The notes beneath the pieces were generated by a model, which worked only from the letters and a program-made list of their open reading frames with translations, made no database searches and was not told the origin of the DNA. Shown here one piece after another: positions 58,254 through 61,546 of a stretch of DNA of 64,000 bases. A program made the translations under genes and the position numbers. The DNA is from Limibacillus halophilus (GTDB lineage Bacteria; Pseudomonadota; Alphaproteobacteria; Kiloniellales; CECT-8803): NCBI RefSeq assembly GCF_014191775.1, contig NZ_JACHXA010000011.1:1-64000 (forward strand), given 5' to 3'. The first letter of the stretch is position 1. Each line of letters opens with the position of its first letter.

Positions 58254-59867
58254 TTATCGCGGCTCGCTCATCAACCCTCTGACGATCGCATAGCAACCGC
58301 CCAAGAGGACCAGAGTGAAAGGCAATCCGGTCGAAACCGCCATGGCCTGAAGCGATCCAAGACCGCCTCCGAGCAGGAGAGCGATTGCAACCAAGCCCTC
58401 GAACACGCACCAGAACACACGTTGCGGCAGGGGCGCGTCGACTTTACCGCCCGCCGTGATGGTGTCGATCACTAGGGAGCCGGAATCCGACGAGGTGACG
58501 AAAAACACGATAACCAGGACGATTCCAATGAACGAGGTGATTCCCGCCAATGGCAGCGGCTCAAGCATGACAAAGAGCTTCAGTTCGAGTGATGCCTCCG
58601 CAACCGCCGTGTAGCTGTCGTTGACGATCTGGCTGATAGCCGTACCGCCAAATGCCGTCATCCAAAGCACGCTGACCACCGAGGGGATCAGCAACACGCA
58701 GATGATGAACTCCCGCACGGTGCGGCCACGGCTGACCCTGGCGATGAACATGCCGACGAAGGGCGACCAGGAAATCCACCAAGCCCAATAGAAGGACGTC
58801 CAGCCCTGGCTGAAGTTGCCATCCTCGCGTCCCACCGGATTGGATAGTGCCGGCAGGTATTCGACATAGGCTGCAAGATTCTTGAAGAACCCACTGACGA
58901 TCGCGAGCGTTGGGCCGACAAAGATGACGAAAACCAATAACAGGAATGCGAGCACCATGTTGATTTCCGATAACCGCTTGACGCCCGCGTCCATACCGGC
59001 AACGACGGAAGCCAGGGCAACGGCGGTGATCGCTGTGATCAGAATGACTTTCGAGAAATCTGTAGCCTCTATGCCAAACAGATAGTCCAAGCCACCACTC
59101 GCTTGCTCTGCCCCAAAGCCCAACGATGTGGCCAGCCCAAACAGCGTCGCAAAGACAGCCAGCACATCGATGATGTGCCCAGGCCACCCCCAAACCCGCT
59201 CTCCGAAAATGGGATAGAAAATCGACCGCATGGTCAGCGGCAGCCCCTTGTTGAAGCTGAAAAGCGCCAAGGCCAAGGCCACAATTGCATAAATTGCCCA
59301 GGGATGCAGACCCCAGTGAAAGATGGTGGCAGCCATGCCAAGCCGCCGAGCTTCTTCGGCGTTGCCCGCTGCGCCAGCCAAGGGCGCCCAGCTATCGGGC
59401 GTGCCCGCATCTGCGGCAAGAGAAGACGTGAAATGCGAGATCGGCTCCGAAACGCCATAGAACATCAACCCGATGCCCATGCCGGCTGCAAAAAGCATCG
59501 CAAACCAGCTCGCGTAGGAATAATCCGGTGTCGCATCCATGCCACCCAGCCGAACTTTCCCCAACGGCGATATGATCAGGAAAAGGCAAAGCAGCACGAA
59601 GATATTGGCCGCGCCGATAAAAAACCAATCCAAGGAAGAAGTCAGCCAAACCCTAATATCATTGAAAATCGGCCCGACACTGTTCTGGAAGGCCAGCGTG
59701 ATAAACACGAAGGCAACGATTGTCAGCCCTGAGATAGCAAAAACCGGGTTGTGGATATCCAACCCGAAGGGCCCAACGCTGGCGGTGATATTGTCCTGGC
59801 CTATCTCATATTCGGTTTCAATTACATCCGCTGCCCCATCGGGGCCTGCGCCTAGATCATTTGTCAT
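58254..59867 (-). CDS. BCCT family transporter
   Basis: Sodium- or proton-coupled secondary transporter for glycine betaine, choline or carnitine-type osmolytes, 537 residues. Twelve membrane helices with the BCCT signatures GMGIGLMFYGVSEPISHF, WGLHPWAIYAIVALALALF, SLGFGAEQASGGLDYLFG and the tryptophan box YWAWWISWSPFVGMFIARVSRGRT. The N-terminal about 35 residues are acidic and cytosolic. Substrate cannot be decided, though it is likely an osmoprotectant uptake system. AGAGGG precedes the ATG. Confidence 0.94.
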   Translation of the reverse strand: MTNDLGAGPDGAADVIETEYEIGQDNITASVGPFGLDIHNPVFAISGLTIVAFVFITLAFQNSVGPIFNDIRVWLTSSLDWFFIGAANIFVLLCLFLIISPLGKVRLGGMDATPDYSYASWFAMLFAAGMGIGLMFYGVSEPISHFTSSLAADAGTPDSWAPLAGAAGNAEEARRLGMAATIFHWGLHPWAIYAIVALALALFSFNKGLPLTMRSIFYPIFGERVWGWPGHIIDVLAVFATLFGLATSLGFGAEQASGGLDYLFGIEATDFSKVILITAITAVALASVVAGMDAGVKRLSEINMVLAFLLLVFVIFVGPTLAIVSGFFKNLAAYVEYLPALSNPVGREDGNFSQGWTSFYWAWWISWSPFVGMFIARVSRGRTVREFIICVLLIPSVVSVLWMTAFGGTAISQIVNDSYTAVAEASLELKLFVMLEPLPLAGITSFIGIVLVIVFFVTSSDSGSLVIDTITAGGKVDAPLPQRVFWCVFEGLVAIALLLGGGLGSLQAMAVSTGLPFTLVLLGGCYAIVRGLMSEPR

Positions 59868-60321
59868 TGTTCCCTCTCTTTGGTTCGCTGGGAGTCCCGA
59901 CCGCCGACGAGGCGGTTACTTTCAATGAACCACAGGGGGCCATTTAGCCTCCCGCCCAATAGTTTCCAGGCCTATTTCGTGCCTAGAAATTCGACAATTC
60001 CAAATATACCCAAGTTACTTACAAGGTATATCGGTCGCCAATTTCAGTATCTCCTTATATGCGGCACCTCGAATTAATATCTAAGAGCGAATAATCATCG
60101 CCCATGATCATAATAATTGGCTTATTCGACGGATTAATTTTCAAACAGCGCCTCATATTTTCATATTCGAACCGATTCTGCCATGGTCGCTCGAAAAGAA
60201 AGGCGGCTTAGAAAATGGCTTTGGACGCAAAAAAGGCCCGCAACAATGCGAGCCTTTTTTTAATCAATCGGTAGCGCTAAAGGTTAGTGAACCAATCGCA
60301 ATCTTTGGTTACTCAACCTGA
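59868..60321. promoter_or_regulatory. Long AT-rich upstream region of the BCCT gene
   Basis: 454 bases without a convincing gene. Adjacent to the BCCT start is a hairpin ACCGCC-GACGA-GGCGGT near 59900, within the likely mRNA leader. From about 59980 to 60180 the base composition becomes distinctly AT-rich with many TATA-like steps, suitable for promoters, but no pair of hexamers stands out. A terminator sits at 60229-60261. Upstream of it are two micro-ORFs. Possible readings in the plus strand lack ribosome sites. Confidence 0.5.
60229..60261 (-). terminator. Terminator after the micro-ORF pair
   Basis: AAAAAGGC-C-CGC, loop AACAAT, GCG-A-GCCTTTTTT. The stem has one internal mismatch and flanking A and T runs, so it works in both directions. 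It lies 61 bases after the second micro-ORF on the minus strand. Confidence 0.75.
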
Positions 60322-60447
60322 TCAGCTCAGGCCGAGTCCGCGCAACATCAACGGGTTCACGGAAATTTTCTCAGCCAAGGCAACCTTCGAAAACGGCTTT
60401 TCGACTGTGCTATGCCGGAAGAACCCAAAAAGCTTCAAGATCGACAT
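60322..60447 (-). CDS. Micro-ORF B, 41-residue protein of unknown function
   Basis: Short gene not recognisable from any family I know. The predicted product starts MSILKLFGFFRHSTVEKPFS, has an alanine/lysine middle (KVALAEKIS), and ends with VNPLMLRGLGLS before TGA. It has a basic, partly hydrophobic character and no signal peptide. The case for translation rests on a perfect AAGGAG Shine-Dalgarno six bases before the ATG, a position 62 bases downstream of micro-ORF A on the same strand, and a terminator right after. Alternative: a structural RNA that happens to contain an open frame. Confidence 0.5.
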   Translation of the reverse strand: MSILKLFGFFRHSTVEKPFSKVALAEKISVNPLMLRGLGLS

Positions 60448-60509
60448 TTTTCTCTCCTTGGCCATAAAGACCGCTTTTCTGGCCCAAAAGGACCATTCAT
60501 CCTAACGTT

Positions 60510-60623
60510 TCAACGAGCCCGACGGTCGTTGCGCGCCATCGGCGCGTAGGGATTGAGTACCAGACCGAAATCAATGCTGTCGGCGACCCGAAGCAACGCA
60601 GAAAAGAAACCTTTCACCGACAT
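60510..60623 (-). CDS. Micro-ORF A, 37-residue protein of unknown function
   Basis: Short gene whose product begins MSVKGFFSALLRVADSIDFG, continues LVLNPYAPMARNDRRAR and ends at TGA. The N-terminal half could form an amphipathic helix, and the tail is Arg-rich. GGAGG lies five bases before the ATG, better than many housekeeping genes in this window. It precedes micro-ORF B and follows the ion-channel gene, all on the minus strand. Both products start MS[IV] with aromatic residues and contain an Asn-Pro in the second half, which hints at a related pair. No homologue is known to me. Confidence 0.5.
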   Translation of the reverse strand: MSVKGFFSALLRVADSIDFGLVLNPYAPMARNDRRAR

Positions 60624-60787
60624 GGCGACCTCCATATGCAATACGACCTCTAGTGGTCTGATTAATCCTTAACCTGACTCAGGAGATAGGCGCTTATCCG
60701 CGGCTGCACAAATGCAGTTCTTGCGCCTGAGCTATGTCATTTCTGCAGGATGCTGCACCGCAATATAAGCGACCGCCGATCTGGCCT

Positions 60788-61546
60788 TCATGCACCCTCT
60801 GTTCGAATATGGATTGTCTCGCCACAGTGCTTACAATGCACGGCATCCGGTTCATGGCGTTCCAAGCCGCATGACGAGCAAACGTGCTGCACCTTTGCGG
60901 GCCTGAAAATCGTCTGCGCCAGACGTAAGAATAATGCCACGCCGAAGATCATGATTACGATCGTCAAAAGGCGGCCCAGGGTGTCGGTCATGATGATGTC
61001 GCCATAACCGGTCGTCGTTAGCGTTGTAACCGTGAAATAAAGTGCATCCAGGAAATTGGTGACATCGGGATTTCGGCGCCCTTCCAGCACGTAGACCACG
61101 GAGGCGACGAAAAAAACGAACACGAACAAATTGACCGAGGAGCGCAAAACCTCCTCGTGCAGGCGAAACCAGCGCGAATGCTCACGCAGTTCCTTCAACA
61201 AGTGATAGGATCGCAGGAGGCGCAGCATTCGCAGCACCCGAAGAAATGCCAGGTTTTCGAAGAGCAACGGCGCAAGCAGTGAAATAACCACCACCAGATC
61301 CACGATGTTGCCTGGTTGTACAAGCGCGCTGGCCGGGCGATGGGCCGTGGCGACTCGTGCTGCAAGATCCAGGGCTACCAACACTGCGATCAGGTAGTCC
61401 AAGCCGTAGAGAGAAGCCTCGGTCGGCAGGACCGTGGTCACGATGAAAAACCCGATGGTGAGTATATCGAAGCCGATCAACGCAAACCGAAACCGCTGCG
61501 AGGTTTCGCTGGTGCCGTAATAGAGCTCTCTCAACCGCGCGCGCAA
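60788..61546 (-). CDS. Voltage-gated-type potassium channel with C-terminal zinc ribbon
   Basis: Six-helix ion channel of 252 residues. The voltage-sensor S4-like helix shows regularly spaced arginines in LAFLRVLRMLRLLRSYHLL. The pore helix and filter are FTVTTLTTTGYGDI, the K+-selective TxGYG signature, followed by S6 (LLTIVIMIFGVALFLRLAQTI). The last 40 residues are a predicted zinc ribbon, CSSCGLERHEPDAVHCKHCG, instead of a cyclic-nucleotide or RCK domain. The channel may respond to voltage, metals or redox. The micro-ORFs lie downstream on the same strand. Confidence 0.9.
   Translation of the reverse strand: MRARLRELYYGTSETSQRFRFALIGFDILTIGFFIVTTVLPTEASLYGLDYLIAVLVALDLAARVATAHRPASALVQPGNIVDLVVVISLLAPLLFENLAFLRVLRMLRLLRSYHLLKELREHSRWFRLHEEVLRSSVNLFVFVFFVASVVYVLEGRRNPDVTNFLDALYFTVTTLTTTGYGDIIMTDTLGRLLTIVIMIFGVALFLRLAQTIFRPAKVQHVCSSCGLERHEPDAVHCKHCGETIHIRTEGA

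Follow-up and report, generated by a model that had tools for sequence, protein, structure and literature searches.

Between an ion channel gene (60788–61546) and a BCCT transporter gene (58254–59867) of the 64,000-nt stretch of Limibacillus halophilus DNA analysed here (the window) lies a space of 921 nt with two very short reading frames, which raises the question of whether these frames are genes and what their products might do. The upstream frame, uORF1 (60510–60623, minus strand), specifies a peptide of 37 aa, MSVKGFFSALLRVADSIDFGLVLNPYAPMARNDRRAR, and has the Shine-Dalgarno sequence GGAGG (60629–60633, minus strand) 5 nt before its ATG. After a gap of 62 nt follows uORF2 (60322–60447, minus strand), which specifies 41 aa, MSILKLFGFFRHSTVEKPFSKVALAEKISVNPLMLRGLGLS, behind the Shine-Dalgarno sequence AAGGAG (60454–60459, minus strand; 6 nt before the ATG). 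Folding predicts an intrinsic terminator at 60229–60261 on the minus strand, a 14-bp hairpin with A/T arms (A/U in the transcript; -22.7 kcal/mol, z -4.44) that may act in both directions. The BCCT gene lies on the same strand as the micro-ORFs, 455 nt downstream. An earlier note had described both minus-strand frames with their lengths, spacing, ribosome sites and hairpin, and all of these agree with the coordinates and the sequence. The two frames are the only ATG ORFs of 35–60 codons with a strong Shine-Dalgarno sequence in the 921 nt, while dinucleotide shuffles of the same space gave a mean of 0.057 such ORFs and at least two in 5 of 2000 cases.

The search for relatives and the comparison of synonymous sites, both asked for by the earlier note, found the frame of uORF2 conserved. 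Among 58 related genomes there was one clear relative, in G001, which belongs to a different genus and is the only other genome of the same family among those searched. The homologue, MSMMKLFRALTVRVAREAICKVALTTPSQVNPLMLKGLNIG, also has 41 aa and aligns with uORF2 without gaps from the same start to the same stop, with 17 of 41 residues identical. Different, synonymous codons are used at 9 of these 17 residues, and the differences fall on codon positions 1, 2 and 3 in the ratio 22/13/24, lowest at position 2. The BLOSUM62 score is 74 in frame; the other frames give no more than 46, and none of 100,000 shuffles reached the observed score. The G001 micro-ORF has its own Shine-Dalgarno sequence (GAGGAG) and its own terminator. 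Judged from this comparison uORF2 is a real, conserved coding gene, because a frame that is kept while synonymous codons change is the pattern left by protein-level selection.

A third member of the uORF2 family is probably encoded in G012, from another family of the same order. Its peptide, MKFAKVLVDLFKMPAERAFSKVALAPVIDLPHPPQTAVNPLQLLGLYRD (49 aa, behind GGAG), lies between a LysE-type and a glycerol-kinase-type gene, as named by reading the translations. When its 8-residue insert is left out, the alignment score against uORF2 was reached by 0 of 100,000 shuffles; the candidate was, though, chosen out of many weak profile matches (E 0.125), so we call its membership only probable. In the window, G001 and G012 peptides alike, KVAL follows exactly 20 residues from the start, and VNPLxLxGL is followed by exactly 3 residues and the stop, giving the family signature KVAL...VNPLxLxGL. 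A further ORF, in G239 (L031:1501–1689, MPLLNHFRLFTIRANAQAMEKVSVASKFSVTPFILPPGL..., beginning MPLLNHFRLF, E 0.001), has a KVAL-like motif at the same distance of 20 residues, with a longer C-terminal tail and no clear ribosome site; it is a possible distant relative.

Wider searches returned little. Among 384 genomes of the class, uORF2 relatives were confined to three, with no further member, and the family thus appears to be sparse or too diverged for the searches used. Scanning GTDB contigs with a two-sequence profile gave 26 pattern matches, none of them confirmed, and the same kind of scan on viral contigs confirmed no uORF2 relative. Plasmids searched by tblastn gave marginal matches only, and 80 BCCT loci had no relative by tblastn or profile. 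Weak profile matches in G021, G049, G056, G351, G372 and others turned out to be other frames or long ORFs on frame-by-frame reading. The window peptides have no match in Pfam, NCBIfam or PHROGs, in line with the earlier note, which knew of no family for them, and the uORF2 family is previously unnamed.

Upstream of uORF1 lies an element that is absent from the earlier description of the locus. This is a PhaR-type operator box, TGCTGCACCGCAATA (TATTGCGGTGCAGCA on the minus strand), an exact pattern match at 60751–60765 with no strand assigned. A box of this type, TGYTGCRNYGCA, is found at both the window and the G001 locus (C33:20338–20352 in the latter), 106–128 nt upstream of the first micro-ORF, and the upstream regions of both share TTGC-N3-GCAGCATCCTGCA, the core of which resembles the PhaR box. 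The 13-mer ATGCTGCACCGCA of the window box recurs in the box ahead of a phasin gene in G000, and the window box lines up with the boxes of phasin genes, phaC and ppa, although one of its arms is degenerate (AATA). At both loci the promoter region thus has the core YGCRNYGCR of the PhaR operator. Given about 20 places in 3.1–3.5 Mb, the chance that one of them falls in the 150 nt before a given gene is about 0.001 per genome. A possible -10 element, TATATT (60762–60767, minus strand), runs into the box; a sigma-70 consensus scan gave no full promoter match. No box lies near the G012 relative. Box and micro-ORF occur together in two genomes only, and the other loci screened for the combination had none. 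A box-like stretch upstream in G017 (L024) did not match the operator pattern.

The same boxes stand in front of genes of PHB metabolism elsewhere in the two genomes. The pattern TGYTGCRNYGCANNA has 24 matches in G000 (3 for the reversed control) and 31 in G001 (1 for the control), corresponding to 19 and 22 distinct places, counts that are weakened for the two micro-ORF sites, known before the pattern was written, but not for the regulon. Adjacent to boxes are both phasin genes of each genome, phaC (in G001) and genes for citrate synthase, malate dehydrogenase, inorganic pyrophosphatase, a methylmalonyl-CoA-mutase-type enzyme, HpcH/HpaI aldolases, an enoyl-CoA hydratase/patatin pair and a CitMHS-type transporter. 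Phasin genes (PF09361) were located in four genomes, most with TGYTGCRNYGCA-type boxes upstream, and PhaR itself (PF07879) scores over the cut-off in G000, G001 and G012. The boxes fit the published PhaR motif of Sinorhizobium meliloti, which has the core YGCRNYGCR and targets that include phaP1, phaP2, gltA and ppa (PMC12542648). The best reading of the predicted operator is that the uORF2 gene belongs to the PhaR regulon.

Some other loci of these genomes deserve mention. In G000 (L228, contig C9) phaR points away from an ORF behind which comes a PhaC-like reading frame; reading by eye also showed stretches rich in TGC upstream of phaR, and autoregulation is possible. Each of the two genomes has a ParA-like ATPase gene that starts 27–28 nt from a box of the PhaR type (L202:212–880 and L224:1327–1993), and a link of this gene to granule partitioning is conceivable. 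In G001 a 61-aa ORF with a strong Shine-Dalgarno sequence and no Pfam match starts 44 nt after a PhaR-type box (L221:2071–2256), possibly another small protein of the regulon. PhaR-type boxes also lie about 75 nt upstream of SorX-like sRNA candidates (RF02784) followed by terminators, at L199:1948–2109 (G000:C3:423647) and L212:2055–2231 (G001:C1:91554); the matches (E 0.002 and 0.22) are below the gathering score, and the arrangement calls to mind MmgR of S. meliloti, which is under PhaR control.

Gene order indicates which gene the box serves. The window has box, uORF1, uORF2 and terminator in this order, and in G001 the BCCT gene and its terminator are followed by the box, the micro-ORF, a terminator and an aminotransferase gene that is encoded on the opposite strand and converges on the micro-ORF. 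Since the micro-ORF stands alone between box and terminator, it is the only evident target of the box in G001. The channel homologue of G001 is encoded on a different contig and lacks a nearby box, and the BCCT gene lies upstream of the micro-ORF, cut off by its own terminator; the ion channel and the osmolyte transporter, which the earlier note had named as neighbours, therefore look incidental rather than like functional partners. Its proposal of a membrane-modulating or signalling role finds no support. What the PhaR-type boxes of the two loci suggest is a role in PHB carbon storage.

The evidence on uORF1 is of another kind. No homologue turned up in G001. Compared with the uORF2 family as a possible paralogue, uORF1 showed no significant overall resemblance in global-alignment shuffles (p 0.25 for uORF2, 0.04 for the G001 peptide and 0.46 for the G012 peptide). 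It is the first cistron after the box, at a distance of 128 nt that comes close to the 106 nt of the G001 micro-ORF, and its N-terminus is amphipathic by its hydrophobic moment (p 0.015). From this place, the amphipathic N-terminus and a GGAGG at 5 nt, we consider uORF1 likely to be translated, but with its case resting on signals and position it is less certain than uORF2. Of the two-gene micropeptide unit proposed in the earlier note, the uORF2 part is supported, with conserved frame, start and stop and synonymous change in another genus; the counterpart found in G001 is of uORF2 only.

These elements would form a small transcription unit made up of PhaR box, uORF1, uORF2 and terminator. PhaR binds PHB and, as long as it is free, keeps promoters such as those of phasin genes repressed (PMC12542648; PMC5658603). 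By analogy, this PHB-sensing repressor would keep the unit off when there is no PHB; as the polymer builds up, PhaR would be titrated to it and the unit would be expressed alongside phasins and other PHB genes. We regard it as rather probable that the locus holds such a micro-protein gene, repressed by PhaR and induced by PHB accumulation, with a product that serves in PHB storage. The uORF2 micro-protein would then most likely bind the granule surface or a granule enzyme such as synthase, depolymerase or PhaR, although action at the surface or on a granule or PHB enzyme can only be suggested tentatively, and some other PHB- or carbon-related role is a weaker possibility. We do not favour a simple coat of the phasin kind for uORF2, because AlphaFold gives it only a short helix at residues 4–14 with low confidence (pLDDT 59) and its hydrophobic moment is not amphipathic (p 0.90); the moment is also weak for the G012 and G001 peptides. 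More speculatively, and in our opinion rather unlikely, the products of uORF1 and uORF2 might together coat or regulate the PHB granule as a micro-protein system of two components. Such "micro-phasins", PhaR-controlled and fast-diverging, might then have been missed by annotation across the Alphaproteobacteria, a suggestion that is equally speculative. If true, they would be a class of granule proteins several times smaller than the known phasins.

A PhaR-controlled micro-protein could also work away from the granule, for example on a membrane protein or on central carbon enzymes. The regulon does reach beyond PHB genes, with citrate synthase, malate dehydrogenase, pyrophosphatase, the ParA-like ATPase and the CitMHS-type transporter, and the non-amphipathic uORF2 would suit such a role; with no visible partner and a channel/transporter arrangement that is not kept, we nevertheless think it less likely. 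That the transcript is mainly a PhaR-regulated sRNA like S. meliloti mmgR, its ORFs being incidental or part of a dual-function RNA, seems improbable: PhaR does repress the sRNA MmgR in that species (PMC12542648), and SorX-like candidates lie behind PhaR boxes in G000 and G001, yet uORF2 bears protein-level constraint with synonymous change and the window stretch has no Rfam match.

Chance ORFs in non-coding DNA are a very improbable explanation of the locus as a whole. The missing G001 homologue of uORF1 and the restriction of uORF2 relatives to 3 of 384 genomes would fit it, but not the homology and synonymous change of uORF2, the Shine-Dalgarno sequence, terminator and box recurring in a second genus, or the rarity of two such ORFs among the shuffles. 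For uORF1 taken alone chance carries more weight, though we still think it rather unlikely. Hardly credible is a set of leader peptides or an attenuator for the downstream BCCT gene. The shared strand and the distance of 455 nt would allow it, but a strong terminator stands between the micro-ORFs and that gene, and the order in G001, with the micro-ORF downstream of BCCT behind its terminator and facing the aminotransferase gene, contradicts it.

Micro-proteins are difficult to detect, and giving them a role is harder still. In this case a box common to phasins and phaC gives a conserved micro-protein without a family a testable context, PHB storage, and uORF2 is probably a small component of carbon storage that has gone unnoticed. 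If this is confirmed, the PHB granule or the system controlling it would gain a further, very small member, with relevance to bioplastic production, and regulon boxes could suggest functions for micro-ORFs beyond the reach of sequence searches.

The sRNAs of the MmgR/SorX type are likewise short PhaR-box transcripts with terminators, but the predicted window transcript differs from them in that it has no RNA family match and encodes a conserved peptide. With the PhaR (AniA) regulon of Alphaproteobacteria such as S. meliloti (PMC12542648) and Bradyrhizobium diazoefficiens (PMC10888616), the locus has the operator core YGCRNYGCR in common, and the genes with boxes found here include target types of that regulon (phasins, gltA and ppa). 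In S. meliloti the SMa1961 promoter has its PhaR site between the -10 element and the transcription start (PMC12542648), a placement resembled by the window TATATT that runs into the box, if this is indeed a -10 element. The S. meliloti regulon also includes the uncharacterised small proteins SMc03998 and SMc02051 (PMC12542648), whereas a micro-protein of 37–41 aa with the window sequence is not described in the available parts of PMC12542648 and PMC10888616. Phasins (PF09361 Phasin_2 and others) have the same type of box in the same genome, and uORF1 resembles them in its predicted amphipathic N-terminus, while uORF2 is unlike them in this respect. The micro-ORF products would also be only about 4–5 kDa, compared with 12 kDa or more for phasins (available text of the review PMC5658603), and neither the window peptides nor their relatives gave a Pfam match to phasin profiles at E 1. 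On sequence grounds the micro-protein is thus not a member of the phasin family, though it is found in the phasins' regulatory setting.
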